From a virus: DNA of 33,005 nt. The first letter of the stretch is position 1. Each line of letters starts with the position of its first letter. The position numbers and the translations under genes were made by a program. The DNA lies in IMG/VR virus record IMGVR_UViG_3300034082_001244, positions 1-33,005 of that record; one strand, 5' to 3'. The notes under the pieces were generated by a model. The model did no database searches, was not told where the DNA came from, and saw only the letters and a program-made list of their open reading frames with translations. This document shows, in pieces, positions 10,672 to 26,381 of this stretch.

Positions 10672-10682
10672 GTGACAAACCG

Positions 10683-11566: not shown

Positions 11567-12228
11567 TTGTTCCATTAACTGTACAACAAACTATGGCCTT
11601 ACTTGGGCCTAGTTTTGTTGCTACTTTTCAAGCCGAGATGGATGCAATTGTTGCTCCATTAAGAAAACACATTGCGCTCGGGCGGCCACTAAGTATGGGT
11701 AAGGAATTATGGGAATATGTTGTTGCTGATAGCATACCTGGTGCTGTATGGAATGGTGCAGGACATAGTTTAATCGATGTCATGATTACTCCGGGCGTTG
11801 GAGCGGATGTTAAATCATTGAGCTATGGACCAAAATCAAAGCAAACTACCGAAGCTAGCATGTATCAAAATTTTGATCAGGATGCTAAACAATTTTTTAG
11901 TAATCAGGATAAGCAGTCATTATGGAATTTATACATTAATGGTTGGTTCAGTAAAGCACATACATTTAAAAAATATTATCTTATTGGCATACTTAGAGAA
12001 AAGGCAACACTAAATTGTAATATTTGTGCGTTTGAAGTTACCGATACTGTGCCGACATTTGCTGACGACTTGTGTACCTTTACTAAAAAAATGATGTACA
12101 TCACAGGTATTGCAGATCAAGATTTTCTTAAAATACGATACTATAATAGTAAGAGCAGATTAGAAATTTTATTTCAAGAAAAATGCTGGACTGATCCAGC
12201 ATACACATTACCAATTTATACATATTAA
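11563..12228 (+). CDS. hypothetical protein, possible PD-(D/E)xK-type nuclease fold
   Basis: This 221-residue protein overlaps the folE stop by ATGA. A central segment, HSLIDVMITPGVGADVKSLS (about 69-88), places an Asp, a turn and a DxK (Asp-Val-Lys) on adjacent strands, as in PD-(D/E)xK nucleases such as restriction enzymes. The remainder (KYYLIGILREKATLNCNICAFEVTD region) is alpha/beta. I see no other motif. If it is a nuclease, its position next to base-modification genes would be meaningful, but the assignment is tentative and rests on one short pattern. Confidence 0.55.
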   Translation: MIVPLTVQQTMALLGPSFVATFQAEMDAIVAPLRKHIALGRPLSMGKELWEYVVADSIPGAVWNGAGHSLIDVMITPGVGADVKSLSYGPKSKQTTEASMYQNFDQDAKQFFSNQDKQSLWNLYINGWFSKAHTFKKYYLIGILREKATLNCNICAFEVTDTVPTFADDLCTFTKKMMYITGIADQDFLKIRYYNSKSRLEILFQEKCWTDPAYTLPIYTY

Positions 12229-12237
12229 GGAAACCAT

Positions 12238-12456
12238 ATGACAACAGCTAAAGACTTGACAGATCATATAATTTATCGTGCAAAGAATTTGAAAGAATTT
12301 GTAGTGGAAAGAGAATGGGAAAGTATCCCAACTGGCATTGTTCGATTTAACATACAACATACACAAGGGCACCTTGCTCGATTGTTTGTTCCTGCACTTA
12401 CGCAAACGGAAGCTGAAGAAATGGTGGACGAATGGTTTGAAGAGGATGTGGAATGA
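12238..12456 (+). CDS. small acidic hypothetical protein
   Basis: This 72-residue protein has an AAGGAA ribosome site (12228-12233) just upstream. It is helical at both ends, with a middle strand (GIVRFNIQHTQGHLARLFVP), and ends in an acidic helix (EAEEMVDEWFEEDVE). No known family is recognised. It is coupled by ATGA to the 57-residue gene that follows. Confidence 0.65.
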   Translation: MTTAKDLTDHIIYRAKNLKEFVVEREWESIPTGIVRFNIQHTQGHLARLFVPALTQTEAEEMVDEWFEEDVE

Positions 12457-12626
12457 ATCCAAAATATCTTTATACTATTAAATGGACACAACCATATGCT
12501 ACTTACCGAATGCGTCCGTATCTTCGTCACTTGCGTAACGAATATGAAACTCAAATTGAAGCTAGGTTGGATCGTGGTGAGTTTGATGATGCAAAAACAG
12601 TAATAGAAAGGATCATGTCATTATGA
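12453..12626 (+). CDS. 57-residue hypothetical protein
   Basis: This short frame fills the otherwise empty gap between two coupled genes. ATG 12453 overlaps the preceding TGA, and its own TGA (12624-12626) overlaps the next ATG at 12623, so the ATGA chain is continuous. The product is basic and aromatic at the N-terminus (NPKYLYTIKWTQPYATYRMR) and helical after that (RLDRGEFDDAKTVIERIM). The perfect double overlap is the main evidence that it is real. Function unknown. Confidence 0.68.
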   Translation: MNPKYLYTIKWTQPYATYRMRPYLRHLRNEYETQIEARLDRGEFDDAKTVIERIMSL

Positions 12627-12940
12627 ACTGGTTTAAAAGAATTATAGTTAAATGGGTGCGTGAAGATTGGGATAACGCTAGAGATCAGGCAGATGATTGC
12701 TTTCCAAGTCCCAAAATGGGCCGAGGCAACCCTATCAGTACTATTAGTGGTCGTGCCAACGTTGACAGTGAACCCACACTTCAATTCAAAGTGTATAGTG
12801 CTGTTGGTGGTAAAGTTGTAGAATTTAATCGGTACGATCCAAAGTCTGACAGAACTGACCGTCAAATTTATATCATCGGCAAAGACGAAGACTTTGGCGA
12901 AAAAATTGCTAAAATTTCAATGTTGGAGTCACTAAGATGA
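12623..12940 (+). CDS. conserved phage hypothetical protein
   Basis: This 105-residue protein begins with a basic amphipathic helix (NWFKRIIVKWVRED). A strand-rich domain follows, with GGKVVEFNRYDPKSDRTDRQ (about 67-86) and IYIIGKDEDFGEKIAKI. The second half matches a pattern that recurs in T4-like marine phages, in my recollection. No catalytic residues are evident. It is coupled by ATGA on both sides. Confidence 0.68.
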   Translation: MNWFKRIIVKWVREDWDNARDQADDCFPSPKMGRGNPISTISGRANVDSEPTLQFKVYSAVGGKVVEFNRYDPKSDRTDRQIYIIGKDEDFGEKIAKISMLESLR

Positions 12941-13281
12941 AAGCACAAATACCAGCTGAAGGCATAATGAAAACAAACGACTGGGGTGACAGCAGAGTCT
13001 ACCGAATTGCTTGTAATTGCGGCGATGAAGATCACAATCACAACATGTGGGTAGAAGCAGATGACAGTGATATTGTTGTAACCATTTATACCACAGGTAA
13101 AACAAATTGGTGGAGTAAAAAAAGGTGGTATCATATTTGGACACTACTGACCAAAGGTTATATCGATACTGAATCAGCAGTGCATTTAACCAAACAACAA
13201 GCTCTTAACTATGCAAGTGTGTTACAATTAGCAATCGGTGATGTAGAAGAATTTAGGAAAGAAAAGAATGTCAAAAATTAA
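12937..13281 (+). CDS. conserved phage protein with CxC/His cluster
   Basis: This 114-residue protein has a Cys/His-rich segment, CNCGDEDHNHNMWVEAD (26-42), that could bind a metal ion. A beta segment with TTGKTNWWSKKRWYHIWTLL follows, then a C-terminal helix (TKQQALNYASVLQLAIGDVE). The same order of elements occurs in small conserved cyanophage proteins of unknown function. It overlaps the preceding gene by ATGA and queE by 14 bases, so it is translated with queE. A metal-binding role is inferred only from the residues. Confidence 0.7.
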   Translation: MKAQIPAEGIMKTNDWGDSRVYRIACNCGDEDHNHNMWVEADDSDIVVTIYTTGKTNWWSKKRWYHIWTLLTKGYIDTESAVHLTKQQALNYASVLQLAIGDVEEFRKEKNVKN

Positions 13282-14119
13282 AATTGCGGAACTGTTTTAC
13301 AGTATCCAAGGTGAAGGACGTTACATGGGTGTACCGTCTGTTTTCTTACGAACATTTGGATGTAACTTTACCTGTGACGGGTTTGGTATGCCTCGTGGCG
13401 AACAAAGTAAGGAACGGCATTTTATTGCGGCTGATATTAAAAAGTTTTTCAAATATGAAGACTTGCCGTTAGTGAGTTCAGGATGCGATAGCTATGCAAG
13501 TTGGGACCCACGTTTTAAAGATCTAAGTCCTGTAATGGAAACAGACGGAATTGCAGAACGCATTGTAGAAATACTTCCCCATAAAACATGGCTTGATGAA
13601 CATTTGGTCATTACAGGCGGCGAACCTTTGCTAGGTTGGCAACGTGCTTATCCAGATTTGTTGGATCATGTTTATATGAAACAACTGAAAGAAATTACTT
13701 TTGAAACAAACGGTACTCAACCGCTTACACCAGAATTCAAAGAATACTTGCAAGACTGGTCTATGCAGATTCCCGGTGAACGTTGTGTTACATTTAGTGT
13801 CAGTGCTAAACTACCAGCAAGCGGCGAGAATTGGTTTGACGCTATTAGACCAGAAGTTGTTTGTGAATACGAAGAAGTAGGACCTGTATATCTTAAATTT
13901 GTAGTAGCAACAGCGGAAGATATCATTGATGCAGAACATGCTGTAGAAGAATTTAGAGAAGCAGGTTTTGCAGGCTATGTATACTTAATGCCAGTGGGCG
14001 GTGTAGAAAGTGTATACACGCTTAACGCAAAGAATGTAGCACTGGCAGCTATGAATCGCGGCTGGCGTTATAGTGATAGATTGCAAGTGCCTTTATTTAA
14101 AAATGAGTGGGGTACATAA
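13268..14119 (+). CDS. queE: 7-carboxy-7-deazaguanine synthase (QueE), atypical cysteine motif
   Basis: This 283-residue radical-SAM protein has the QueE signatures: AELFYSIQGEG (7-17), VFLRTFGCNFTC (25-36), ITGGEPLLGW (115-124) and ETNGTQPL. QueE rearranges 6-carboxytetrahydropterin to 7-carboxy-7-deazaguanine. The usual CxxxCxxC cluster motif is broken. Cys32 and Cys36 are present, but the third position is Phe39, and the next cysteine is Cys73 in SSGCDSYASW. The third cluster ligand is probably Cys73 after an inserted loop. The C-terminal region (GYVYLMPVGG) resembles QueE. FolE and a QueD-like protein are nearby. I am sure of the family and less sure of cluster geometry. Confidence 0.85.
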   Translation: MSKIKIAELFYSIQGEGRYMGVPSVFLRTFGCNFTCDGFGMPRGEQSKERHFIAADIKKFFKYEDLPLVSSGCDSYASWDPRFKDLSPVMETDGIAERIVEILPHKTWLDEHLVITGGEPLLGWQRAYPDLLDHVYMKQLKEITFETNGTQPLTPEFKEYLQDWSMQIPGERCVTFSVSAKLPASGENWFDAIRPEVVCEYEEVGPVYLKFVVATAEDIIDAEHAVEEFREAGFAGYVYLMPVGGVESVYTLNAKNVALAAMNRGWRYSDRLQVPLFKNEWGT

Positions 14120-14553
14120 TGAAACAGTTTGTTAAACGTATTTTTGGTATTACTAAACTTGAAGAAGAAAAAGCAGAGCTTCAAGTAGCACGAGATAAAG
14201 CGGTTGCTGAAACAGTTCTGGCACAACAAGCAGAAGAACAAGCCAAATTAACTCCAAAAGAACGTGCCACGGCCAAAGGTGAGCCGTGGGTAGCTGTTTT
14301 GGATACCCATGTTAATAAAGACAATATTAGAAATGGATTCTTTGAGCTTGACTGGAACGAGATATTTGTGTTAGAATTGAAACGTGCAGGATACGGATAC
14401 GACGGTGATCCTGATGAAGAAATTGTGGATCGTTGGTTTAGAGATTTGGCACGAAACATGTTAGGTGAAGCCGGAGTAGCCGATCCTGGACGTGTGGGTG
14501 CTGGATATATTAATGTAACAAAACTTGCCGGTGGCAAAGCAGAGGTAGAATGA
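14119..14553 (+). CDS. conserved phage protein with N-terminal coiled coil
   Basis: This 144-residue protein starts at ATG 14119, inside the queE stop (TAATG). Residues 1-55 form a charged helix rich in Glu, Lys, Ala and Gln, probably a coiled coil. A compact domain follows: GEPWVAVLDTHVNKDNIRNG, FELDWNEIFVLELKRAGY, and DEEIVDRWFRDLARNML. This domain is familiar from T4-like marine phages but has no known function. It is coupled by ATGA to the exonuclease gene. Confidence 0.7.
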   Translation: MKQFVKRIFGITKLEEEKAELQVARDKAVAETVLAQQAEEQAKLTPKERATAKGEPWVAVLDTHVNKDNIRNGFFELDWNEIFVLELKRAGYGYDGDPDEEIVDRWFRDLARNMLGEAGVADPGRVGAGYINVTKLAGGKAEVE

Positions 14554-15536
14554 CACATATTATAGTTGATACTGCTAACACGTTCTTTCGTGCTAGACAT
14601 GTGGTGCAAGGCAGTGCTGATATTAAACTTGGCATGGCTTTTCATATTACTTTCAACTCTATTAAAAAAGCATGGCAAGACTTTGGCGGTAGCCATGTAG
14701 TGTTCTGTCTCGAAGGTCGAAGCTGGCGTAAGGATTTTTATACTCCGTATAAAGCCAATCGTAAAGAAGCTAGAGATGCGTTAACTGAAAAACAACAAGA
14801 AGAAGACAAGTTGTTTTGGGAAGCATTCGATGAGTTCAAAAAGTTTGTTACAGAAAAGACTAACTGTACTGTAATGCAACATCCTAATCTAGAAGCGGAT
14901 GATCTTATTGCCGGATGGGTACAAGCACACCCAAATGCAAAACACGTTATTATCAGCACTGATGGCGATTTTGCGCAACTTATTAGTAGCAATGTTAGCC
15001 AATATAATGGTGTAGGTGATTTACATATTACGCACGAAGGCACATTTGATGCTAAGGGTAAACCCGTTAAAGATAAAAAGACTGGTGAACCTAAGGCCGC
15101 ACAAGATCCAGAATGGATGCTGTTCGAAAAATGTATGCGAGGCGATACTAGCGATAATGTCTTCTCAGCTTATCCTGGTGTACGTACTAAAGGTTCTAAA
15201 AACAAAGTAGGCCTTACTGAAGCGTTTGAAGATCGTAAAAGCAAAGGATATTCGTGGAACAATCTCATGTTGCAACGTTGGACCGACCACAATGGACAAG
15301 AACATCGTGTGCTAGAAGACTATCAACGCAATATACAACTATGCGATCTTACAGCACAACCTGCAGAAATTAAAGAAAAGATTGTAGAAACTGTAAAAAC
15401 AAATGCTGTTCCTAAAAATGTAGATCAAGTAGGAATTCGTATGTTAAAGTTTTGTAATATTTGGGATATGAAAAAGATTGCAGACAATATACAAACATAT
15501 GCAGAGCCGTTCCAAGCAAAATATAAGGAAGAATAA
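14550..15536 (+). CDS. rnh: T4 RNase H-like 5'-3' exonuclease (FEN family)
   Basis: This 328-residue protein has the acidic metal ligands of phage 5' nucleases in order: Asp7 (HIIVDTANTF), Glu55 (VFCLEG), Glu115/Asp117/Asp118 (NLEADDLIAGW), Asp138 and Asp140 (ISTDGDFAQL), and Asp199/Asp202 (RGDTSDN). The arch-region helix has basic YKANRKEAR residues. In T4 this enzyme removes RNA primers and short DNA from lagging-strand fragments, so it would work at the replication fork with the clamp encoded at 206-937. Length and motif order match T4 RNase H (305 residues). It is coupled to both neighbours by overlaps. Confidence 0.85.
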   Translation: MTHIIVDTANTFFRARHVVQGSADIKLGMAFHITFNSIKKAWQDFGGSHVVFCLEGRSWRKDFYTPYKANRKEARDALTEKQQEEDKLFWEAFDEFKKFVTEKTNCTVMQHPNLEADDLIAGWVQAHPNAKHVIISTDGDFAQLISSNVSQYNGVGDLHITHEGTFDAKGKPVKDKKTGEPKAAQDPEWMLFEKCMRGDTSDNVFSAYPGVRTKGSKNKVGLTEAFEDRKSKGYSWNNLMLQRWTDHNGQEHRVLEDYQRNIQLCDLTAQPAEIKEKIVETVKTNAVPKNVDQVGIRMLKFCNIWDMKKIADNIQTYAEPFQAKYKEE

Positions 15537-16039
15537 TGTCTAGAGTATATCTAATCAAACCACTTGAAAAGAAAAGCATTGTATGGCACGTGGAGATGTA
15601 TCGTAAAAATGCAGATGATAGTATTAGTTGGTTTAACCTCGACGAAACTTATCGGTGGGGTCAAGGATTTATTGACTCAGAGTTAGACTGCAATCTACCC
15701 TGGGAAGGTGATCCAGTAGCCTATGCTACTAACACTGACGGTTGGGGCAGTGAATTTGATGACAGCATTAACATTGAATTAGAATTCAGTAATGATATTG
15801 ATGAAGAAGAACAAGAAGCTATTCGTGAAGCATACTATGAAGGTGGAGCCGGTTGGTTGTTTGACGGCGAGCATGACTGGCAAGAAGAAGATACTGCGGT
15901 ATATATCATTGCACCATATCAAGTGGATTTATGTGAAGATGACGGAACGGTAATTGAAGAAAATGTTAAACTAAAACAACGACCCGATTCAAACACTAGT
16001 TGGCCGTTTAGTAAAGAATTTCCTAAGGAAGAAAAATAA
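15536..16039 (+). CDS. acidic conserved phage hypothetical protein
   Basis: This 167-residue protein is strongly acidic and rich in Trp (EGDPVAYATNTDGWGSEFDD, then GWLFDGEHDWQEEDTAVY). It has no membrane segment or recognised catalytic motif. The acidic, aromatic composition would suit a protein that mimics DNA or binds a basic partner, but that is only a composition argument. It overlaps the RNase H stop and the next start by one base each (TAATG). Confidence 0.66.
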   Translation: MSRVYLIKPLEKKSIVWHVEMYRKNADDSISWFNLDETYRWGQGFIDSELDCNLPWEGDPVAYATNTDGWGSEFDDSINIELEFSNDIDEEEQEAIREAYYEGGAGWLFDGEHDWQEEDTAVYIIAPYQVDLCEDDGTVIEENVKLKQRPDSNTSWPFSKEFPKEEK

Positions 16040-16530
16040 TGACAGAGATTTATGCAAAACCGATTGTAGATGGAAAATTTTGGATCGTCGAACAAGACGG
16101 TTCTAAAATTGCCACACTACATAAAAAAGAAAATAATAAATTTATTTTGAGTAGCACCAATGGTGAAGTAATGTTTAACAAAAAGCAAGATTTAACCAAA
16201 CAGTTTGGTGATGGATTCTTTTTAACTAGTAGTAAGATCAAAGTAAAAGTTACTGCTACAGAAGAAGAAAATTTCGAATGTCATGGCTATCCAACATTAT
16301 GCGAACCGTTTAATAGTATGTATGATGTTCGTCGTAAACTAGCATTGTTTACAAAATCTAATGCCAGTAAAAGTTTGTATTGTGCAGGCTATTACATTAT
16401 TAAATTTAATAAAGGTTGGGTTAAGAGCTTTTGTCCAAAAGCTATTACTATCGAACGATATCCGTTTAAAGGTCCGTTTAAAGATAAACTAGAAATGAAG
16501 GCAGTGTTATCAAATGCAAAATCCTATTAA
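16039..16530 (+). CDS. conserved phage hypothetical protein
   Basis: This 163-residue protein has a beta-rich first half (GKFWIVEQDGSKIATLHKKE) and a basic second half (CHGYPTLCEPFNSMYDVRRK, then YYIIKFNKGWVKSFCPKAIT). The second half resembles a family common in T4-like cyanophages. It contains three spaced cysteines but no clear metal site. It overlaps the next gene by 17 bases. Function unknown. Confidence 0.66.
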   Translation: MTEIYAKPIVDGKFWIVEQDGSKIATLHKKENNKFILSSTNGEVMFNKKQDLTKQFGDGFFLTSSKIKVKVTATEEENFECHGYPTLCEPFNSMYDVRRKLALFTKSNASKSLYCAGYYIIKFNKGWVKSFCPKAITIERYPFKGPFKDKLEMKAVLSNAKSY

Positions 16531-16762
16531 CCTAACTCCCATAACGCAATTTGTTCAGTTACTTCGAGTAGCCGAACTCAATCAGCAAAAAGAAGTTAAA
16601 TTAACTATACAGCAGGCGCGACTCCTTAATCTTGCATTAACTGAAACATTGGATAAATTGAATAGAGATTGGGAAACGCTATATAGTGCTCTTAAAAATA
16701 CGCAAGAGACTGAAGTAATAACAGTTACCATGGACGGCGGCGGCTTCGTAGAGCCTAAATAA
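16514..16762 (+). CDS. small helical phage protein
   Basis: This 82-residue protein is predicted to be mainly helical, with heptad-like leucines in VQLLRVAELNQQKEVKLTIQ and in ARLLNLALTETLDKLNRDWE. The C-terminal strand ends in DGGGFVEPK. No family with a known function is recognised. Its start lies inside the previous gene, which suggests coupled translation. The following gap (16763-16800) holds a promoter-like motif and a hairpin. Confidence 0.62.
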   Translation: MQNPINLTPITQFVQLLRVAELNQQKEVKLTIQQARLLNLALTETLDKLNRDWETLYSALKNTQETEVITVTMDGGGFVEPK

Positions 16763-16764
16763 AA

Positions 16765-16772
16765 GATAAATA
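16765..16772 (+). promoter_or_regulatory. candidate late promoter motif (GATAAATA)
   Basis: GATAAATA fits NATAAATA, the late-promoter pattern of T4-like cyanophages related to T4's TATAAATA. It lies in a 38-base gap, 28 bases before ATG 16801. An inverted repeat (ATATGCGT at 16772-16779, ACGCATAT at 16792-16799) follows at once and would flank the GAGAG ribosome-site candidate at 16787-16791. Short AT-rich motifs recur by chance, so support is modest. Confidence 0.4.
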
Positions 16773-16800
16773 TATGCGTACTTATCGAGAGACGCATATT

Positions 16801-17085
16801 ATGAGCAGACCCAAACCTAAAGTATTGTTAGAATACACTAACAAAAAAACTTACAAATCTGAACAGATTTTAGAATCTGAAGCCATTTGGGCTGTGTTCT
16901 ATAAGAACGAGCCTTTTAATCTAAAATCGTTTAACAGCCTTACCAGCTATCCCGGACCTAAATACAAAAAGACCAGTTTTAGTAATCCCGGCCATGCATT
17001 AAATCTAGCCAAAAAATTAAACTTAACATTTGGTACTATAGATTTCCAAGTTGTTAAACTGACTCAAGGCACTACGGTAAAATGA
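16801..17085 (+). CDS. conserved T4-like phage hypothetical protein
   Basis: This 94-residue basic protein starts at ATG 16801 (MSRPKPKVLLEYTNK). An upstream in-frame ATG at 16774 would add nine unlikely residues. The body, NEPFNLKSFNSL and GPKYKKTSFSNPGHALNLAK, matches a pattern highly conserved among T4-like cyanophages, as I recall it, but its role is not known. A weak GAGAG site lies nine bases before the ATG. It is coupled to the next gene by ATGA. Confidence 0.7.
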   Translation: MSRPKPKVLLEYTNKKTYKSEQILESEAIWAVFYKNEPFNLKSFNSLTSYPGPKYKKTSFSNPGHALNLAKKLNLTFGTIDFQVVKLTQGTTVK

Positions 17086-17471
17086 TTGACAGAAATTCGC
17101 TAACCAAAATATTTTTACAGCAATGGGGTAAAAGTATAGATGATGCGAATGTTGAACTTTACAATAGAAAATGGTGGCAATCAAATCGAGTTAACAAGCC
17201 CAATGCATTTAGACTAAGTGACGAAGGTTATGAGTTTCTAACAACGATCTTAGAAATTCAAATGTACGAAATTCCTTTCACTGAGCCTATAGAGCTTAGT
17301 CCACAAACAATCATATTTTTAGAAAAATATATTGATTGCCCTTACTACTTAACAAACCAAAGTATTACAGTATTTTCCGAACGTAAGAGTTTTGAGCTGT
17401 ATTTGTTTTCGGACGATATTCGTAAATTTGGTTTGGTTAAGGCTATGACTGAACGTCAAAAAGAATCTTAA
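17082..17471 (+). CDS. conserved T4-like phage hypothetical protein
   Basis: This 129-residue protein contains FRLSDEGYEFL, a helix-strand segment, and near the C-terminus IDCPYYLTNQSITVFSERKS and FELYLFSDDIRKFG. The second half corresponds to a recurring unknown of T4-like marine phages. No catalytic motif is seen. It is the last gene before a 119-base gap that carries the next promoter, so it probably ends this transcription unit, though I see no clear terminator after it. Confidence 0.7.
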   Translation: MIDRNSLTKIFLQQWGKSIDDANVELYNRKWWQSNRVNKPNAFRLSDEGYEFLTTILEIQMYEIPFTEPIELSPQTIIFLEKYIDCPYYLTNQSITVFSERKSFELYLFSDDIRKFGLVKAMTERQKES

Positions 17472-17509
17472 ATTTTGGTTAGATTCAAGAATACTGCTTG
17501 AAAAATTGC

Positions 17510-17538
17510 TTGACTTAGTTGCGTTTAGGCCATATAAT
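17510..17538 (+). promoter_or_regulatory. sigma70-like promoter upstream of the MoxR ATPase gene
   Basis: TTGACT (17510-17515) and TATAAT (17533-17538) are separated by 17 bases within the 119-base gap 17472-17590. The leader to ATG 17591 is about 45 bases and includes ATAGGAAA as ribosome site (17577-17584). Nothing else in the gap looks like a gene. Confidence 0.85.
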
Positions 17539-17590
17539 ATACACATAGCTTAATTTTTTAACCCCGCTAACTTAAGATAGGAAATGTAAA

Positions 17591-18685
17591 ATGGCAGAAA
17601 TCATTAGCCGCACCGTAGGCCCTAAAGGTGCTAAAAAGTCTTTGCGCAAAGCGTTCAAGAATCAGCGTCCAATTTTCCTGTGGGGTCCTCCCGGAATTGG
17701 CAAATCGGATATTATTAAACAACTTGGTACTGAGCTAGAAGCTCATGTTATCGATGTTCGTTTGTCACTGTGGGAACCTACTGACATTAAAGGCATTCCG
17801 TATTTTGACTCAAACACTAGCAAAATGGTTTGGGCTCCTCCTAGCGAATTGCCCGACGAAGAAATGGCAAAACAACATAAGACCATTATTTTGTTCATGG
17901 ATGAAATGAACAGTGCCGCACCTAGTGTACAGGCCGCGGCTTATCAATTGATTTTGAATCGCCGTGTTGGTACTTACAAACTGCCAGACAATGTTGTTAT
18001 GGTAGCGGCAGGTAACCGCGAAACTGACAAAGGTGTTACATTCCGTATGCCTGCTCCGTTGGCTAACCGTTTTGTTCACTTGGAGATGACAGTTGAATGG
18101 GACGACTACTTTGAGTGGGCCGCTGAGAACAAGGTTCACAAGGACGTGGTTGGCTTCTTGTCTTTCTCAAAGAAAGATCTGTACGACTTTGATCCAAAGT
18201 CTAGCTCACGTGCATTTGCTACTCCACGTAGCTGGTCGTTCGTTAGCGAATTGTTGCACGACGATGACTGCGATTCAGATACTTTGACAGACTTGGTATC
18301 AGGTTCAGTTGGGGAAGGCCTTGCTCTTAAGTTTATGGCACATCGTAAACACGCAAGCAAAATGCCTAACCCAAGCGATATCTTGGCAGGTAAAGTTAAA
18401 AAGATGGACTCTAAAGAAATTAGTGCCATGTACTCTTTGACTGTATCCTTGTGCTACGAATTGAAAGAGTCTTGTGATAAGAAAGCCAAAAACTGGAATG
18501 AGCAAACTAACAATTTCTTCGAATTTATGATGAATAACTTTGAAACAGAATTGGTTATCATGGGAACTAAATTGGCACTGAGTACTTACAAACTGCCACT
18601 GGATCCAGACGAAATTGCTTGTTTTGATGAGTTCCATAAGAAATTTGGTAAGTACATTGCACAGGCCACTGACAAGAGCAAGTAA
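17591..18685 (+). CDS. MoxR-family AAA+ ATPase
   Basis: This 364-residue AAA+ ATPase has Walker A GPPGIGKS (33-40), Walker B ILFMDEMN (100-107), sensor-1 AAGNRE (139-144) and the MoxR-type RMPAPLANRF with its arginine finger (about 152-161). MoxR ATPases work as chaperones that insert metals or remodel partner complexes, usually with a von Willebrand factor A protein. That partner is encoded next, after a 73-base gap with its own promoter. Codon use is richer in TTG and GTT than in the preceding genes, consistent with strong expression. The role in the phage is unknown; virion assembly or host-complex remodelling are guesses. Confidence 0.85.
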   Translation: MAEIISRTVGPKGAKKSLRKAFKNQRPIFLWGPPGIGKSDIIKQLGTELEAHVIDVRLSLWEPTDIKGIPYFDSNTSKMVWAPPSELPDEEMAKQHKTIILFMDEMNSAAPSVQAAAYQLILNRRVGTYKLPDNVVMVAAGNRETDKGVTFRMPAPLANRFVHLEMTVEWDDYFEWAAENKVHKDVVGFLSFSKKDLYDFDPKSSSRAFATPRSWSFVSELLHDDDCDSDTLTDLVSGSVGEGLALKFMAHRKHASKMPNPSDILAGKVKKMDSKEISAMYSLTVSLCYELKESCDKKAKNWNEQTNNFFEFMMNNFETELVIMGTKLALSTYKLPLDPDEIACFDEFHKKFGKYIAQATDKSK

Positions 18686-18699
18686 TTAACATGTATCTA

Positions 18700-18728
18700 T
18701 TGACACCGCCTTCGGGCGGTGTTATAAT
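18700..18728 (+). promoter_or_regulatory. consensus promoter with a UUCG hairpin as its spacer (PeSL-like element)
   Basis: TTGACA (18700-18705) and TATAAT (18723-18728) are both perfect, with 17 bases between. An 8-bp perfect stem (18703-18710 with 18715-18722, arms ACACCGCC/GGCGGTGT) closed by a TTCG loop fills the spacer and overlaps the -35 box. Read as RNA from upstream, the hairpin would act as a terminator-like structure, although a weak U-run follows it. As DNA it is a strong promoter for ATG 18759, which has GGAG at 18751-18754. Promoter plus stem-loop cassettes (PeSLs) are described in T4-type phages. Confidence 0.85.
18703..18722 (+). terminator. UUCG-loop hairpin, probable terminator or attenuator after the MoxR gene
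   Basis: The perfect 8-bp GC-rich stem with an exceptionally stable C(UUCG)G loop begins 18 bases after the MoxR gene stop. It is followed by TATAATATATA rather than a pure T-run, so termination may be partial. It would separate MoxR transcription from VWA transcription while the overlapping promoter restarts it. Confidence 0.6.
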
Positions 18729-18758
18729 ATATACATACAGCAAACATTAGGAGCATAG

Positions 18759-19940
18759 ATGTCACATACAGATCCAATTATAGACAAAATTATTGTAGCC
18801 CGTGTGGGCCTACTATTGCGCCATCCATTCTTTGGTAACATGGCTACACGCTTAAAAATTGAAGAAGCAAGCGATTGGCTTCCCACTGCCGCAACAGACG
18901 GACGCACTATTTTCTTCAATAGAGAATTTTTTACACCCCTAACTACTAAACAAATTGAATTCGTTATTGCCCACGAAATTCTTCATAATGTGTTTGATCA
19001 CATGACTCGTGTGGAAGGTCGCAATAAACGCATTTGGAACATTGCCGCAGACTATTGTGTCAACGGACAATTGGTACGAGATCGCATTGGCGAACAACCG
19101 CCAGCAATTAAAATCTTCCACGATGCCAAATACTACGGCAAAGGTGCGGAAGAAGTGTATGACGAAATTTACAACAAGCATGACGAAGAAGAATTGGACG
19201 CACTTGGTCAATTGCTGGACGAACACGTTGACTGGGGAGATTCAGGTAAATCCGGACAGCCGCAATATAGCAAAGACGAACTAAAGAAGATTCGTGATGA
19301 GATACGTGAGGCTACATTACAAGCCGCTCAGGCAGCGGGTGCGGGAAATACGCCTGCAAGTATCCAAAGAATGATTAAAGAGCTCACTGAGCCTAAGATG
19401 AACTGGCGTGAGATTATTCGTCAACAGATTCAAAGTACTATACGTGATGACTTTAGTTTTATGCGACCTAACCGCAAAGGCTGGCATATGGGTGCTATTC
19501 TTCCAGGAACTAACTTCAAAGAAACTATTGATATCTGTGTAGCCATTGACATGTCAGGCTCAATTGGAGACGACCAAGCAAAAGATTTCTTAACAGAAAT
19601 CAAAGGCATTATGCAAGAGTATCAAGACTTTAATATTAAAGTTTGGTGCTTTGATACTAAGGTATACAACGAAGCAGACTACGACGGCTACTCGATGGAC
19701 GAGTTTGATGACTACGAAGTTATGGGTGGCGGTGGCACTGAGTTTGATGTCAACTGGGAATACATGAAAGCTAACGATATCCATCCTAAAAAGTTTATCA
19801 TGTTCACAGACGGGTATCCATACGGTTCATGGGGCGATGAAAACTACTGCGATACAGTGTTCATTATTCACGGTAATACTACTATTGTTCCTCCGTTTGG
19901 CGAGTACGCTTACTACGAAGAAGTAACTGAAGCCGCATAA
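18759..19940 (+). CDS. VWA/metallopeptidase-like protein, MoxR partner (DUF2201 type)
   Basis: This 393-residue protein has two domains. The N-terminal domain carries a zinc-metallopeptidase motif, HEILHNVFDH (72-81, HExxHxxxxH), and a downstream NIAADYCVN helix, as in the putative metallopeptidase domain that precedes VWA in DUF2201 proteins. The C-terminal VWA-like domain begins near 255 with the MIDAS motif AIDMSGSIGD (262-271); GGGGTEF and MFTDGYPYG follow. An acidic, charged linker (140-190) joins them. Such proteins pair with MoxR ATPases. The gene has its own strong promoter and ribosome site. Catalytic activity of the protease domain is plausible, the target unknown. Confidence 0.85.
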   Translation: MSHTDPIIDKIIVARVGLLLRHPFFGNMATRLKIEEASDWLPTAATDGRTIFFNREFFTPLTTKQIEFVIAHEILHNVFDHMTRVEGRNKRIWNIAADYCVNGQLVRDRIGEQPPAIKIFHDAKYYGKGAEEVYDEIYNKHDEEELDALGQLLDEHVDWGDSGKSGQPQYSKDELKKIRDEIREATLQAAQAAGAGNTPASIQRMIKELTEPKMNWREIIRQQIQSTIRDDFSFMRPNRKGWHMGAILPGTNFKETIDICVAIDMSGSIGDDQAKDFLTEIKGIMQEYQDFNIKVWCFDTKVYNEADYDGYSMDEFDDYEVMGGGGTEFDVNWEYMKANDIHPKKFIMFTDGYPYGSWGDENYCDTVFIIHGNTTIVPPFGEYAYYEEVTEAA

Positions 19941-19941
19941 T

Positions 19942-20229
19942 ATGAGTTTAAAAAATGGCAAACCTAATCCTTTAAATTATTTCGAATTACGTAGGGTTAG
20001 GGTTGCCTGCCCTCATTTTAAATATACTACTATAGAACGATATAATCCAATCTTGCTCAAGAATATAGACAGTTGGATCTTTAATAATTTAAATAGTAGG
20101 TACTATATTGGACAAATTATTGGGCTTGACCAATCTAATACAATTGTGCATAATACACGAATAGGATTCGAAAGCGAAAAAGAATTAAGTTTCTTCAGGA
20201 TTGCCTGCCCGCTTTTAGAAACGAGATAA
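19942..20229 (+). CDS. small hypothetical protein with a repeated RxACP motif
   Basis: This 95-residue protein starts one base after the VWA stop. It contains RVRVACPHF near residue 18 and FFRIACPLL at the C-terminus, so the two ends carry a similar Arg-x-Ala-Cys-Pro hairpin that might pair or bind a metal. Between them are tyrosine-rich segments (SRYYIGQIIGLDQSN). No family is recognised. Its TAA is followed by a 30-base gap with a strong ribosome site for the next gene. Confidence 0.6.
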   Translation: MSLKNGKPNPLNYFELRRVRVACPHFKYTTIERYNPILLKNIDSWIFNNLNSRYYIGQIIGLDQSNTIVHNTRIGFESEKELSFFRIACPLLETR

Positions 20230-20259
20230 TTAACTATGTACTTAACCGAAGGAGATACT

Positions 20260-20487
20260 ATGACTGAATCCGTACAAGAAAATCAAGAGCAACCACAAAC
20301 TGGAGCTCCAGCAGAAAATCCAAACGATTTAACTATCAACGACTTAAATGCAATGAAAGTTATCATCGACATTGCCAGTTCACGGGGTGCATTTAAACCA
20401 AATGAAATGACAGCAGTTGGGCAAACTTACACAAAATTAACAGCTTTTTTAGATCAAGTGGCTAAACAAGCTGAAGGACAAAAATAA
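20260..20487 (+). CDS. conserved T4-like phage protein, small
   Basis: This 75-residue protein starts at ATG 20260, chosen over ATG 20236 because GAAGGAG (20248-20254) lies just before it. The first 25 residues are Gln/Glu/Pro-rich and disordered. The rest is a helical domain (INDLNAMKVIIDIASSRGAF, then KLTAFLDQVAKQAE). It matches a small conserved protein of T4-like cyanophages found beside the gene that follows here. Role unknown. Confidence 0.72.
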   Translation: MTESVQENQEQPQTGAPAENPNDLTINDLNAMKVIIDIASSRGAFKPNEMTAVGQTYTKLTAFLDQVAKQAEGQK

Positions 20488-20488
20488 T

Positions 20489-21103
20489 ATGGCTGAACTT
20501 AAACACGTTGGTAGAGTAAAATCTACTAATAAAAAATGCGTTGTTGCATATCGAACATTGCCTGGCGATGCATACAACTGCTTAATTGTACCGACTGAAA
20601 ATCTACCAGACAGTTATCACGATGCTATTATTAATCTAGTAGAAAGTACAACTGGTCAAGATGCTCACGAATTTGCAGATGCGTTGGCAAGGGGCAATTT
20701 TCCAGATGGTAGCATTATGTTATCAGCATTGCATACACAGGGTAAGTTAGTTAAGATTTCAACAGATCAAGTTGAAATGCAACCAACAACATCTGTATCG
20801 ATCCTTTTATCAGAACTTAATCAAGTTATTGCAGAGCAACGTGGCGTAGCAATTGATGATCTTTCTGTTAAATCTAATATGCCAGATGCTAAACAAGCTG
20901 AAACTCCTAATACTAAAAAAACCGAAAGCGATGTTACACGAACAACATCAACGTCAGTTAATGAAACCGAAGCAGTTAATGCTAATTTAACTCCGGAAGA
21001 GCAGGCTAAAGAATATCGTAGCAAAGCAGACCGCTTGGCTAAAGATGCCGCAAATTTCCGTAGACTTGCTGAAGATTTAGTGCCGACTAAAAAACAAAAA
21101 TGA
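20489..21103 (+). CDS. conserved T4-like phage protein
   Basis: This 204-residue protein has a well-packed N-terminal domain (GRVKSTNKKCVVAYRTLPGD, then ENLPDSYHDAIINLVES; residues 6-100). A disordered Thr/Ser/Glu-rich linker covers 125-165. A basic helical tail (EEQAKEYRSKADRLAKDAAN, then FRRLAEDLVP) follows. The order of elements is the same as in a widely conserved unknown of marine T4-like phages. The gene follows the 20260 gene by one base and overlaps the next by ATGA. A structural or nucleic-acid-packaging role would fit the tail but is unproven. Confidence 0.72.
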   Translation: MAELKHVGRVKSTNKKCVVAYRTLPGDAYNCLIVPTENLPDSYHDAIINLVESTTGQDAHEFADALARGNFPDGSIMLSALHTQGKLVKISTDQVEMQPTTSVSILLSELNQVIAEQRGVAIDDLSVKSNMPDAKQAETPNTKKTESDVTRTTSTSVNETEAVNANLTPEEQAKEYRSKADRLAKDAANFRRLAEDLVPTKKQK

Positions 21104-21420
21104 TGTCTAAGGGAAAAGTCTTTCCCAAAGAAATCATTGAACATTGGCCTGAAGTATTTGGAGAAGTAAAACTCAACGTGTTACCTCTTGGGTATTTGCA
21201 TTCAGTTTTGGTTAATTTTAAAGATGGTAAAACGTGGGAAATTAAAGTAACTACACTTACACGTAACGAAGGATGGTCTAGTTTTGAATTGAATCTTCGT
21301 GAGCTTGTAAAAACTTACGAAGATTCTATTGATAATATAGATTTTAAACTTGACACTGAACGTGTTAAAAAAGATATTGTAAAATCAACCCAAAAATTTT
21401 TAAAGAAAAAGAAGTTATAA
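21100..21420 (+). CDS. conserved T4-like phage protein
   Basis: This 106-residue protein contains WPEVFGEVKLNVLPLGYLHS, a strand pair, and KTWEIKV; the C-terminus is very basic and helical (KKDIVKSTQKFLKKKKL). The layout resembles a conserved unknown of T4-like cyanophages. Two candidate starts (21100, 21103) are adjacent. The first overlaps the previous stop as ATGA and is used here. A role in nucleic-acid or transcription contact is suggested only by the basic tail. Confidence 0.7.
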   Translation: MMSKGKVFPKEIIEHWPEVFGEVKLNVLPLGYLHSVLVNFKDGKTWEIKVTTLTRNEGWSSFELNLRELVKTYEDSIDNIDFKLDTERVKKDIVKSTQKFLKKKKL

Positions 21421-21423
21421 ATA

Positions 21424-22086
21424 ATGAATGTTCGGCTACTATCCTATTCACAACCCACAACAGAATTTAGAGACTTGGGTCTCGCAGATGCGCAGGAACT
21501 CATTGCGTATTGCGCCCGTGTTAGCAATCCTTCCAATCAACTCAACACAGACACATCAGAAAAACTCATCAAGTACTTGGTCAAACACCAACACTGGAGC
21601 CCACTTGAAATGGTCTCTGCCTGTATTGAAATTACCACAACAAGAGATATTGCTCGACAAATCTTGCGACACCGAAGTTTCAGTTTCCAAGAATTCTCTC
21701 AACGCTATGCTGACCCAACGAAAGATCTCAATTTTGTTACAAGAGAAGCTAGATTGCAAGACGAAAAAAATAGACAGAACAGCGTCGAAGTCGATGATCA
21801 ACTGTTACAAAATGAATGGTTCCGTGCCCAACAACGAGTTATATATGCCGCTAAACGGGAATACGAGTGGGCTATTAAAAACGGCATAGCCAAAGAACAA
21901 GCTCGCGCTGTTCTACCAGAAGGACTTATCGAAAGTCGTTTATATATGAATGGTACACTACGTAGCTGGATTCATTTTATTGAATTGCGAAGTGCCAACG
22001 GCACACAGAAAGAACATCAAGAAGTTGCTATTGCCTGCGCTAAAGTAATAGCTACTATTTTTCCTCTAGCGGCCAGTCTCCTTTAA
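21424..22086 (+). CDS. thyX: flavin-dependent thymidylate synthase ThyX
   Basis: This 220-residue protein carries the ThyX motif RHRSFSFQEFSQRY (82-95), matching RHRxxSxxxxSxRY, with PEGLIESRLYMNGTLRSWIH at the dUMP-binding region (about 160-179). ThyX methylates dUMP to dTMP with methylenetetrahydrofolate, FAD and NADPH. This supports phage DNA synthesis and suits hosts or phages without ThyA. It is the last plus-strand gene. Its final 32 bases overlap the 3' end of the convergent minus-strand gene. The start at 21424 has no strong ribosome site of its own but lies three bases after the previous stop. Confidence 0.9.
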   Translation: MNVRLLSYSQPTTEFRDLGLADAQELIAYCARVSNPSNQLNTDTSEKLIKYLVKHQHWSPLEMVSACIEITTTRDIARQILRHRSFSFQEFSQRYADPTKDLNFVTREARLQDEKNRQNSVEVDDQLLQNEWFRAQQRVIYAAKREYEWAIKNGIAKEQARAVLPEGLIESRLYMNGTLRSWIHFIELRSANGTQKEHQEVAIACAKVIATIFPLAASLL

Positions 22087-22798
22087 ACGTTTTAGGCGGA
22101 AACATTTTGATGTGTCCGTTAAATTCAGATTCTAGCCAAGCATAATCGTTTATCTTGGCTAGGGTTGCAGTATCATCTTTATAAGTTTTTCCAAACCATT
22201 CTCCGGCACTTGCACCACCTTTAGCATATTCTCCAAAGGTTCTGTCGCCACCAATATGGGTCCATACTTTTAATCTATGTGCAGTTTCGTCGTCCAATTG
22301 ACCTAAAATAGTTCTGCTGGCTAACTTGGCACATTCTCTAAATGCGCTACGCCATGTACTTAACGGATCAATGTTAAATGCCGTTATATTTGAAACTGTT
22401 GTCATTGCTTTAAATCTAGTAGATATACTAGTAGTCATATCTGGTTTAGATAGATCCATAGTCAATGTCAATTCTCTTGGTAATAGTTTAACACCACCAT
22501 AACCATATTCTAAATCATTAATAGGATTAATACTTCTCCAAACATGTACAATATCCTCTTCGCTGGCATCTAACTTTATATTAAATTTAAAATTAGGTAG
22601 TATTCTTGCATCCGCATCAACTACCCAAAACATATTAGTCTTTGCAACTTTGGCTGCTTCTATATGCGCTTGGTGTATACCGTTAACTCCATGTATTCGA
22701 TAGACACTATTATCTAATGCCACAACGTGTTTTAACAAATCTAAATAACCTCTATCAGCATTAGGCTCGTTAAACGATATAAACACAATATCGTACAT
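22055..22798 (-). CDS. GT-A-like glycosyltransferase, first pair member
   Basis: This 247-residue protein starts IVFISFNEPNADRGYL, a nucleotide-binding strand and loop, and carries a DxD-type motif FWVVDADARI (57-66, Asp61 and Asp63). Such a motif binds a divalent metal and nucleotide sugar in GT-A enzymes. It is a close paralogue of the protein encoded at 22798-23697, sharing the ISFNEPNA/LSYDEPNA start and the IHGVNG/VHGVKG segment. T4-like marine phages often encode relatives near tail-fibre genes. Likely acceptors are virion fibres or host glycans. It overlaps thyX tail-to-tail and is the last gene of its operon. Confidence 0.65.
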   Translation of the reverse strand: MYDIVFISFNEPNADRGYLDLLKHVVALDNSVYRIHGVNGIHQAHIEAAKVAKTNMFWVVDADARILPNFKFNIKLDASEEDIVHVWRSINPINDLEYGYGGVKLLPRELTLTMDLSKPDMTTSISTRFKAMTTVSNITAFNIDPLSTWRSAFRECAKLASRTILGQLDDETAHRLKVWTHIGGDRTFGEYAKGGASAGEWFGKTYKDDTATLAKINDYAWLESEFNGHIKMFPPKTFKGDWPLEEK

Positions 22799-23697
22799 TA
22801 TCGCCTCCGAATAATTCGTGGAGAATTATTGTATACTGTTTTAAAAAATTTACTGCCGTTAGGATCTAACTCTGCAAGCTCTAACCTGCACTCGTGTTTC
22901 AGTGTCTCTCCTAATCCCATAATTTCATAGGGTAACATTTCTTCTGTAATTTTACTGTACTTTGTTTCCCACTCAGTAGTTAACCATTCAAAGTCTCGAA
23001 CATTCGCATAATCCCAGTCAGTACAGTTAGTAAGGTAAGCACCCTCTCTAGCACCGTACATACTCCACAGTCCGTTTTCCACGTCGGCACCAACGTTGCA
23101 CCATATTAGCATCCGATCATAATTTTGCCACCATATAGATTTTAAATCTGTTGTCTTAGCACCTTGATCCAATGACATTTTTACGCCTTCACGGAAGCCG
23201 GCACGCCAGGCTTGGAATGGAGTAGCATTGGTAAAGCTCTCACTGTAGTTTTCATTAAACTGGTAATATTTGTCATCAAAACAAAATTCAACCAACCCTT
23301 TTACGTCATTGGGATCTGAATTTTCATGTGTCCGCATACTGTTAACAAATTTACGTGTCCACAGTTTTAAACCACCATTACCGTACATAAGCCCATTGAC
23401 GTGAACTTTACCGCACCAACTGAACACATGATCTGATGTTAGTCCTAGTGAATCCAAGTCTATTTCAACTTCAAGGAATTTTGGATCAACAATATTATCG
23501 GCATCTACAGTAACAAAGTATTCAGTTTCGCTTAGTGCGGCACAGGCTTTGTGTGCGGCATCGCTACCTTTAACTCCGTGTACACGTTTTGCCCATGGTA
23601 CTTTGTTGCACAGGTCTGCATAATTTTTTTCGGCGTTAGGCTCATCATAACTTAGAAAAATAATGTCTTGTTCTATAATTTTAATAATGTTACTCAT
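22798..23697 (-). CDS. GT-A-like glycosyltransferase, second pair member
   Basis: This 299-residue protein begins similarly (IIFLSYDEPNAEKNY) and has FVTVDADNIVD (61-71, Asp65 and Asp67) as DxD motif. A conserved GNGGLKLW segment follows; its counterpart in the 22055-22798 product is GYGGVKLL. The pair shares order and spacing over about 200 residues and then diverges; this one has about 50 extra residues. It overlaps the next gene by one base (TAATG). The glycosyltransferase fold is likely; donor and acceptor cannot be inferred. Confidence 0.66.
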   Translation of the reverse strand: MSNIIKIIEQDIIFLSYDEPNAEKNYADLCNKVPWAKRVHGVKGSDAAHKACAALSETEYFVTVDADNIVDPKFLEVEIDLDSLGLTSDHVFSWCGKVHVNGLMYGNGGLKLWTRKFVNSMRTHENSDPNDVKGLVEFCFDDKYYQFNENYSESFTNATPFQAWRAGFREGVKMSLDQGAKTTDLKSIWWQNYDRMLIWCNVGADVENGLWSMYGAREGAYLTNCTDWDYANVRDFEWLTTEWETKYSKITEEMLPYEIMGLGETLKHECRLELAELDPNGSKFFKTVYNNSPRIIRRR

Positions 23698-24282
23698 TTA
23701 ATTTTTCCATGTTTGTATTCCGTAAGAGAAAAATGGATTCCTCGTAAAAATATTAACTTTTTTAATATCTAATTCATATTCAGATACAAATGGTATAACT
23801 GTTTTATCTTGAATCAAATTCTCTATATCGATTTTTATTTGTTGTATTAATATATTAGGCTCGTTTGCCACTGTAATATAAAATTCTACATTTTTATAAC
23901 GTATCTTTGAATCACGAATGTCTCCACTATATATACGTTGTCTAAATTCGTCTGTGATAATAAAGATCCATACTTTTTTAAAAGCATCCCAGTGTACTGT
24001 TAATTCTGGTGTAAGATTAGTGTTGTTTGTGATTCTTTCAAATAAGCTATTTTTGAAAAGTATATTTTGTTTTTCTTTTTGAACTAATTCAAATTCGCAA
24101 TCTATATTTTTTGTTCTACAAACTACCCAGTCAGAAAACTTTTCAATACCGCTAACAAATCTGTGATATTGTTCCTTAGTTACTTCTAATTTATATTCAT
24201 ATTCACTTCTAAGTTCATTAGAAAATGCCAATAGATTACCCGTGTCAATATCAAAATACGCATATAACTTAATATTTGCCAT
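23698..24282 (-). CDS. hypothetical protein within glycosyltransferase operon
   Basis: This 194-residue protein is rich in Ile, Asn, Lys and Phe, in line with the low GC of this operon. It opens with KLYAYFDIDTGNLLAFSNEL and has a helix-strand body (HWDAFKKVWIFIITDEFRQR). No catalytic motif is visible. It sits between two glycosyltransferase pairs and abuts or overlaps both neighbours, so it is co-translated with them. It could be a fibre-associated or chaperone-like protein; there is no direct evidence. Confidence 0.62.
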   Translation of the reverse strand: MANIKLYAYFDIDTGNLLAFSNELRSEYEYKLEVTKEQYHRFVSGIEKFSDWVVCRTKNIDCEFELVQKEKQNILFKNSLFERITNNTNLTPELTVHWDAFKKVWIFIITDEFRQRIYSGDIRDSKIRYKNVEFYITVANEPNILIQQIKIDIENLIQDKTVIPFVSEYELDIKKVNIFTRNPFFSYGIQTWKN

Positions 24283-25126
24283 CGGCTAGTTCCTCTAATT
24301 CTAATAACAAATTATCTGTTATGAACTCTTTTTCTACATAATGAAATAATTTATCTTGAGCAATATTTCCAACTACTAATTTTCCAGTAGATGTTAGATA
24401 ATGAGAAACTATATCTTGCCAACTTTCAGGAATAATAGACCATCCTTGTATAGGAGATTTCATATGAGTGAATTGTAAGGGAGAATTTACATCAATAATA
24501 TTGTATAACCCTGATAATTCTATTGCAATGGCACACGCAACATCCATACTTAACCAATTTTGATACTCGTTAGGCGTAAATTTTCCGTAACATAATTCCC
24601 AGTTACTTACCACATAGGCTAATACTTTATAAAAATCTCCGGCTTCGTCTGATTTTTTAAAGTAATGCAATGCATGATAAACATTAGGTAAGTTGTTTGT
24701 TACAAAAGTCTTTCGATGTACAGTATCAATGATAGTTTCTAGTTTGTAATTTGTAATTTTTGAACAAAATCGAATATTAAAATTAGCACAATATGTCCAC
24801 CATGTACTGATATCTTCTAACAACAACATATCTGCATCTAAAACAATGGTTTCGTAATAGGGACTAGCGTGATATAGTTTCCAACGATTTTCAATTTTCC
24901 ATTGTGTTTTAGTAGCATCGTCATTCCATGGTATTGGAATAATTTTATCAAATACTGCTTTATATTTTTTTGGAACTCGATTATTTGTAACTAATGATAT
25001 ATTAGTAACTTCCAACTGTGTCGATTTAATACTCAAGGCAAGTGCGTATGCTTGTTTGATATAATCAACACTCTTATTATTTTGAGCAAGAACTACGAAT
25101 CCCTTAGACACCCGAACCTCCGTCAA
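24269..25126 (-). CDS. GT8-like nucleotide-diphospho-sugar transferase
   Basis: This 285-residue protein starts KGFVVLAQNNKSVDYIKQAY and carries ETIVLDADMLLLED (92-105, Asp97 and Asp99), the DxD motif in the setting seen in GT8 enzymes. HMKSPIQGW follows near residue 229, where GT8 enzymes have a metal-ligand His-x-x-G/K pattern. It is a paralogue of the neighbouring 25104-25961 product (AQNNKSVDYIK versus AQNNSSIDYVK). The two genes overlap by 23 bases. A sugar transfer role is likely, the acceptor unknown. Confidence 0.7.
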   Translation of the reverse strand: MTEVRVSKGFVVLAQNNKSVDYIKQAYALALSIKSTQLEVTNISLVTNNRVPKKYKAVFDKIIPIPWNDDATKTQWKIENRWKLYHASPYYETIVLDADMLLLEDISTWWTYCANFNIRFCSKITNYKLETIIDTVHRKTFVTNNLPNVYHALHYFKKSDEAGDFYKVLAYVVSNWELCYGKFTPNEYQNWLSMDVACAIAIELSGLYNIIDVNSPLQFTHMKSPIQGWSIIPESWQDIVSHYLTSTGKLVVGNIAQDKLFHYVEKEFITDNLLLELEELADGKY

Positions 25127-25961
25127 TGAACCGTGAAAGGCTTAATTTATTCATAATATGAACATCAGTGTTGTTTAAGGAAACAGCAGTATACTCCCCT
25201 AAATAATTTTCTTTTTCGATTAAGAATTTCATCTTAATGTCATCTAGAGAAATTAATAAATCTCTATCGGAAATGTAAAACATTTTACCAGGTAATTCTT
25301 GGGCAAACATACCAGACGTCTTTGCGTTCATTAAATGAATAGCAATACTAAATGCAAAATCATTTCTAAATGTAGGAACTTCTATACTATATAATGTCCT
25401 AAAATATTGCCAATTGTTTTTAACATATTCAACTACAGTAAAAAAGTATTTTACTTCTAATGTTTTTTCAAAGATAAAAGTTGTGGCCCAATAAAACGGT
25501 ATAGAATATTGATTTATTCTAGTAAATTCAGTTGTGCCGCGCCACGACGACAGGCTAAAACAATCTTTATATATTTGAAAAGTATGCTCTGAATTTAAAG
25601 GGTTAGCTAATGCCGTTGAATTAATAATATAATCACTGTCAATAACTAGTGTCCTGTCGTAAGGAGTTAAGTCGTATACTGAATTACGGGCTAAGTTTTT
25701 CCATTCTAAAAATTTTGAAGATAAAGTTCCGTCATTAAATCTTTTTTGATTATAAGCGGATACATTTTCTATATGAAAAATTTGATCAAAAATCTTAGAT
25801 TCTTTAGGATATGTCTTTAGTAACCAGTCAGCCGAATCTGTTATAATACTGACTGGAATTTTTAAAAAACTTTGTAAACGCTGAGCCGCAAAAATAGCTA
25901 ACTTGACATAGTCGATGGATGAATTATTTTGAGCAAAAATTACAGCGCCAGTTGTTTTCAT
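25104..25961 (-). CDS. GT8-like glycosyltransferase paralogue
   Basis: This 285-residue protein begins TTGAVIFAQNNSSIDYVKLA and has RTLVIDSDYIIN (103-114; Asp108 and Asp110), so the metal-binding DxD is a DSD. The middle part (about 115-220) is divergent, with many aromatic residues. A possible HIMNKLSL segment near the end replaces the paralogue's HMKSPIQ. Identical length and overlapping arrangement with 24269-25126 suggest tandem duplication followed by divergence. Its start overlaps the previous gene's stop by ATGA. Function as above, less certain. Confidence 0.62.
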   Translation of the reverse strand: MKTTGAVIFAQNNSSIDYVKLAIFAAQRLQSFLKIPVSIITDSADWLLKTYPKESKIFDQIFHIENVSAYNQKRFNDGTLSSKFLEWKNLARNSVYDLTPYDRTLVIDSDYIINSTALANPLNSEHTFQIYKDCFSLSSWRGTTEFTRINQYSIPFYWATTFIFEKTLEVKYFFTVVEYVKNNWQYFRTLYSIEVPTFRNDFAFSIAIHLMNAKTSGMFAQELPGKMFYISDRDLLISLDDIKMKFLIEKENYLGEYTAVSLNNTDVHIMNKLSLSRFIDGGSGV

Positions 25962-26308
25962 AGATCAATTAAATCGCTTATTTTTCTTTTGGATTTAATT
26001 GCTAAGAATCTAGTGGAGTAATTGACAACGACTTCAAAATATTGGTTTGTAATACTATTAAAAAATTCTTGCACATCCGCTACTACAACTGGATTGCCGT
26101 TGTCATCAACAAACACAGCATCCGCAGTGCGGTTTAGATCAATCATTAATTTTGCAAAGTTGATTAGTGTGGGTGTGATTTTGAATGTTGCCCCGTTAAT
26201 GTAATAGATTAATTTTAGATTTGTTTCTTCACTCAACAAGCGTCGTTGATTTGACAGTGTTGCCATGTAGTTAACAACTTCAAATGCTTTTTGAATTTTT
26301 TCGTCCAT
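25958..26308 (-). CDS. conserved T4-like phage protein near tail fibres
   Basis: This 116-residue protein starts at ATG 26308 (MDEKIQKAFEVVNYMATL) because GGAG (minus strand, 26315-26318) lies six bases before it. The longer reading begins at a GTG (26338) inside the promoter palindrome. It includes LYYINGATFKIT-like and DDNGNPVVVADVQEFF segments, which I recall from conserved cyanophage proteins beside tail genes. It is the first gene of the glycosyltransferase operon. Role unknown; fibre-associated is a guess from context. Confidence 0.7.
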   Translation of the reverse strand: MDEKIQKAFEVVNYMATLSNQRRLLSEETNLKLIYYINGATFKITPTLINFAKLMIDLNRTADAVFVDDNGNPVVVADVQEFFNSITNQYFEVVVNYSTRFLAIKSKRKISDLIDL

Positions 26309-26322
26309 AGATAACTCCGAGA

Positions 26323-26358: not shown

Positions 26359-26381
26359 GACATTAGAAAATTTAAATTAGG

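Follow-up and report, generated by a model that had tools for sequence, protein, structure and literature searches.

A sigma70 promoter with a hairpin in its spacer as a probable fused terminator-promoter between the MoxR and VWA genes of a phage

Architecture of the MoxR-VWA junction

The window, that is, the whole 33,005-nt stretch of the IMG/VR record that was analysed and to which the copy counts for the phage under study refer (33 kb), carries on its + strand a gene for a MoxR-type AAA ATPase (17591–18685), recognised as an open reading frame with matches to the PHROG 1297 ATPase (E = 4e-101) and to Pfam AAA and AAA_3. It is followed on the same strand by a gene encoding a DUF2201 metallopeptidase-like and VWA-like protein (18759–19940; PF13203, E = 4e-37; PF09967, E = 2e-14; PHROG 1314), in the following referred to as VWA. 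In PHROG 1314 and in many RefSeq phage records the latter is labelled as an HNH or homing endonuclease, which, given its Pfam DUF2201 and VWA-like domains, looks like a widespread mis-annotation. Upstream of MoxR, a putative promoter (TTGACT-N17-TATAAT, 17510–17538, + strand) was assigned by consensus match only; it agrees with the consensus at 11 of 12 positions and has no hairpin.

Between both genes, 14 nt past the MoxR stop codon and 30 nt ahead of the VWA start codon, lies the element TTGACACCGCCTTCGGGCGGTGTTATAAT (18700–18728, + strand), which reads TTGACA-N17-TATAAT. Its −35 box (TTGACA, 18700–18705), 17-nt spacer (18706–18722) and −10 box (TATAAT, 18723–18728) constitute a consensus sigma70 promoter with 12 of 12 matching positions and a TG preceding the −10 box. 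The same letters form a hairpin composed of the 5′ arm ACACCGCC (18703–18710), a TTCG loop (18711–18714; UUCG and thus of the YNMG class as RNA) and the 3′ arm GGCGGTGT (18715–18722), the arms being delimited by folding and by compensatory changes across relatives. In this 8-bp stem both the spacer and the box edges take part: at its base the hairpin is built from the −35 ACA, and the last bases of the 3′ arm supply the TG of the extended −10, which is present because TGT pairs with this ACA. Two extra RNA pairs, G18702·U18723 and U18701–A18724, could extend the stem to ten pairs. RNA folding yielded a minimum free energy of −17.8 kcal/mol (z = −6.1), with none of 200 shuffles being equally stable, and the hairpin has the GC-rich character of a canonical intrinsic terminator. 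The initial annotation, which had reported a perfect TTGACA/TATAAT pair with a 17-base spacer and an 8-bp, TTCG-closed stem reaching into the −35 box, was exact in letters and coordinates and is borne out by the folding.

For a transcript arriving from upstream, the −10 box is also the start of an A/U-only tail behind the hairpin. Of the 8 nt that follow the stem, 4 are T; the tail is A/T-only for up to 11 nt, with no U-run, and the same count of 4 T in 8 was found in 86 of the 90 junction elements surveyed below. As a consequence of this tail composition, 18700–18728 was not listed by a terminator scan of the window. Further downstream, the conserved stretch ATATACATA (18729–18739, + strand), defined by column conservation, contains the transcription start predicted from spacing at about 18735, and the sequence TAGGAG (18748–18753, + strand) serves as the putative ribosome-binding site of VWA. 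By the same spacing, the predicted release point of RNA arriving from upstream would lie within a few bases of this start.

Perfect TTGACA-N15–19-TATAAT promoters occur twice in the window, compared with 0.09 expected per dinucleotide-shuffled window. The second one, at 157–185, has no hairpin, and 18700–18728 is the sole 12/12 promoter within 10000–29900. Scanning the window for promoters with a hairpin in the spacer returned 18700–18728 and one weak 9/12 site on the opposite strand, while shuffled windows contained 0.5 such sites on average. Searches of the window for Rfam families and tRNAs gave no hits.

Conservation and covariation among relatives

Relatives of the VWA protein were found across 768 phage records that include many jumbo phages; in the majority of the records examined, VWA lies directly or a few genes behind an AAA ATPase. 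Among named phages, the closest in VWA sequence are jumbo phages, with identities of at most 44%. As the relatives of the window encode a T4-type Gp23 capsid (PF07068; present in G001, G002 and G005, and also in PA5oct), this lineage can probably be placed within the T4 superfamily in its wide sense. A survey of 140 loci among the VWA relatives afforded 90 distinct junction elements, and in nearly all relatives the element is located directly between MoxR and VWA. The −35 box is invariant in all 90, the −10 box reads TATAAT or TATACT across nearly all of them, and the hairpin is present in 88, the exceptions being L048 and L099.

Comparison of these elements revealed that the promoter boxes are invariant or nearly so, while the letters of the stem vary and their pairing persists. 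In a set of 40 distinct MoxR-VWA elements, pairing is kept in 99.5% of the pair cells, and covariation scores 0.363, compared with 0.084 for shuffled and at most 0.12 for slid alignments. On a tree built from the coding flanks the outer stem pairs changed about 13 times, and both arms changed together in 10 of 10 independent comparisons. The loops belong to the YNMG class in 85 of the 88 hairpin elements (UUCG, UACG, UGCG, UUAG, CGCG and others), a class of RNA tetraloops (PMC5633025). The stem covariation, the YNMG loop and the occurrence of G·U but never A·C wobbles place the hairpin at the RNA level; and because the promoter's own RNA begins downstream of the hairpin, the folded RNA would have to be a read-through MoxR transcript. 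These findings point to selection on the hairpin of the + strand RNA, made in the direction of the promoter from upstream, and the boxes and the position of the element are conserved along with it.

In the MoxR-VWA lineage (e.g. L190–L264), the two outer pairs are either CC/GG or GG/CC, with no intermediate form, and the state of the loop carries no phylogenetic signal. Such recurrent switching may possibly have arisen via gene conversion between co-infecting phages.

Unfused counterparts and other genomic contexts

In L048 and L099, whose MoxR and VWA share 66% and 54–55% identity, the junction features a GC-rich hairpin followed by TTTTT and then immediately by a hairpin-less TTGACA-N17-TATAAT, while both bear the fused form at a different junction. 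A canonical terminator behind MoxR was also observed in CBB, XaC1, Atu_ph07, Phosso and PA5oct, with an additional, separate promoter-like sequence in Phosso; SCTP-2 and Vibrio phage 2.275.O exhibited no obvious hairpin directly ahead of VWA. The fused element occupies the place that a terminator and a promoter take in these relatives. At the same MoxR-VWA junction, the canonical terminator and separate sigma70 promoter of L048 and L099 would perform the same job and are its sequence-level equivalent, the difference being that they are two consecutive elements with a U-run, whereas the window has one 29-bp element. It is mainly due to these counterparts that we read the hairpin as a terminator despite the missing U-run. 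The earlier proposal that one piece of DNA can close off the MoxR transcript and launch that of VWA is plausible. Since terminator and promoter stand unfused at this junction in sister lineages, the fusion can be tested directly against its separate parts.

To place the element in a wider context, IMG/VR was searched with the pattern TTGACA-N5-TTCG-N5-TGTTATAAT, in which ten stem bases (five pairs) were left free, and at least 119 stretches matched. Among the matches listed, all five free pairs were formed in 66 of 78 distinct hits after removal of duplicates; 9 of these 66 palindromic hits, again among the matches listed, had one G·U wobble and none had A·C, although few cells enter this count. 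In contrast, a control with the reverse-complement loop (CGAA) was fully paired in 0 of 45 cases, and bacterial genomes yielded 2 fully paired cases in 71, approximately the level for unselected spacers. Based on the paired IMG/VR hits and these two controls, the hairpin can be regarded as a phage feature that is read in one strand only, namely in the transcript from upstream. An any-loop pattern gave a GC-rich paired stem in 4 of 133 distinct hits among the matches listed, with spacers mostly unpaired, and GNRA loops were rare (9 of 122 paired), some of them AT-rich and possibly due to chance. When 45-nt variants of the element were compared with named phages by BLAST, the hits were chiefly ordinary terminators. 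Besides these, Aeromonas phage Ahp1_CNU-2021 matched exactly over 26 nt, with a poorer −10 box, and cyanophage S-T4 has a similar element.

In settings unrelated to this junction, most −35 boxes begin no more than 10 nt past the preceding stop codon, and a gene usually comes within about 25–60 nt. Fused elements were located between a gp59-type helicase loader region and a gp32-type SSB (L028), at an SSB-like position (L083), ahead of a gp44-type clamp loader (L004 and kin), behind a CobS-like ATPase (L037) and ahead of an NAD-dependent ligase (L038). Some lineages combine GNRA loops with multiple copies, as in L545 with three sites in 10 kb. The element of L047 (3024–3052, − strand) is situated directly upstream of a putative tRNA gene.

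Proposed function and competing readings

Promoter-early stem-loops (PeSLs) are said to have been described for the T4-type phages RB49/phi1, PST and nt-1 by Arbiol et al. in 2010 and Comeau et al. in 2014, the latter reportedly calling them composite promoter-terminator motifs in the title. RB49 is a phage in which PeSLs were described; their stem-loops terminate transcription, and they are characterized by many copies per genome, a high density in variable regions and module exchange between otherwise unrelated neighbours. The element of the window shares with them a consensus sigma70 promoter, a hairpin in the 17-nt spacer and a position in the gap that separates a stop codon from the following gene, and it likewise joins a strong sigma70-like promoter and a stem-loop in one small element. 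The likeness to T4-type PeSLs noted in the initial annotation holds, as the same scan recovered 12 promoters with a hairpin in a 17-nt spacer in RB49. The RB49 hairpins differ in having mixed loops of 3–5 nt, whereas the stem in the window reaches into both boxes and is closed by a YNMG loop. The element thus has PeSL anatomy, and its probable role is that of a terminator and promoter fused into one. A comparable joining of a promoter box with an inverted repeat is found in the haloarchaeal virus HGTV-1, where inverted-repeat promoter motifs precede many genes and were likened to PeSLs by its authors (PMC3950731); there, however, the promoter is of the archaeal TATA type and present in many copies, and the virus is unrelated.

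We consider it likely that terminator and promoter are fused in this element and that it keeps the transcripts of MoxR and VWA insulated from each other. According to this model, a host-type RNA polymerase would transcribe MoxR from its promoter at 17510, and the RNA of 18701–18724 would fold into the UUCG-capped hairpin, which, together with the A/U-only tail, would end, or at least define and protect, the MoxR mRNA near 18735. As double-stranded DNA, the same base pairs would act as a sigma70 promoter of consensus type, with 17 bp between the boxes and an extended −10, that initiates the VWA operon at about 18735, with VWA as the first gene of the downstream transcript. The fusion would allow a short intergenic gap to insulate both transcripts. 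That RNA both ends and starts at the element, and with what efficiency it ends, we infer from the sequence, and as no U-run is present, intrinsic termination may be partial. The covariation shows a single 29-bp sequence to be under constraint both as promoter DNA and as an RNA hairpin, and the motif could be used for locating transcript boundaries in uncultured phages.

Alternatively, the hairpin might serve as a stabiliser or processing site at the mRNA 3′ end that shields read-through or trimmed MoxR RNA, with the promoter overlap merely saving space. Selection at the RNA level, the YNMG loop and the missing U-run fit this reading as well as they fit a terminator, and we grant it a minor but real chance. 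It is the relatives that speak against it, since their hairpins at the MoxR-VWA junction have T-runs and are canonical intrinsic terminators, which implies that the ancestral job at this place was termination. A further elaboration of the fused terminator-promoter assumes recycling at zero distance: bacterial RNA polymerase can remain on DNA after hairpin-dependent termination (PMC11347151), and as the predicted release point overlies the next start site, a retained polymerase might immediately reinitiate on VWA and couple both outputs. We regard this coupling as speculative and rather unlikely; if true, it would explain the fused form at core junctions (MoxR-VWA, gp59-gp32, and before the gp44-type clamp loader) across lineages.

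The initial annotation had gone on to suggest a mobile cassette, i.e. a full PeSL that exchanges gene modules by recombination. The hairpin-in-spacer geometry shared with the 12 RB49 promoters and the fast turnover of the stem sequences are in line with this idea, as is a 192-codon ORF (L195, 6999–7577; PHROG 2954, labelled ferrochelatase) that sits directly behind the element and ahead of VWA in this sole relative, and which the promoter of the element would now drive. Apart from this insertion, the search for module exchange among relatives found the two neighbouring genes conserved nearly throughout. Relative records of 165, 98 and 94 kb, which are possibly incomplete genomes, contain one strong copy each, compared with 12 in RB49. 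In addition, the correlation of genetic distances is about as high across the element (0.781) as within MoxR (0.753) or VWA (0.794), and this comparison of flanks among relatives gave no recombination signal at the element. Copy number, conserved neighbours and correlated distances therefore lend the suggestion of mobility no support, and we deem it improbable; in contrast to a PeSL, the element appears as one copy fixed at one junction with no sign of shuffling. The PeSL literature couples two ideas, a composite promoter-terminator and a recombination cassette; they can be separated here, with the composite being held in place by selection and showing no sign of mobility.

Even less probable is a hairpin that acts as DNA, either as a cruciform or as a single-strand hairpin promoter of the kind used by the virion RNA polymerase of phage N4. 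N4 promoters also have a hairpin inside the promoter; theirs forms in DNA and is used by a phage polymerase, and sigma70 boxes are lacking. A perfect inverted repeat within the promoter would suit such a mechanism, and covariation by itself does not separate DNA from RNA. The specificity for the RNA-sense strand nevertheless argues against it, as seen in the YNMG loops of 85 of 88 hairpins, the G·U but never A·C wobbles on the + strand and the 0 of 45 paired CGAA loops, which set the element apart from N4-type promoters; with sigma70 boxes at consensus, a special polymerase is moreover unnecessary. The chance coincidence of a good promoter and a palindrome has practically no likelihood, being refuted by the CGAA control and the bacterial genomes and by an element whose conservation and covariation extend over dozens of relatives and which was found independently in several lineages.

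Several other features of the window were recorded. The hairpin-less promoters at 129–185 and 17482–17538 have in common a AAAAATTGCTTGAC-like upstream stretch (repeat D2), and promoters sharing this stretch probably form a phage promoter class. The presence of GTP cyclohydrolase and QueE-like genes (10730–11566 and 13268–14119) suggests 7-deazaguanine DNA modification, and tandem paralogous genes with repeats about 960 bp apart were observed on the − strand at 28053–29074 and 28599–29650.
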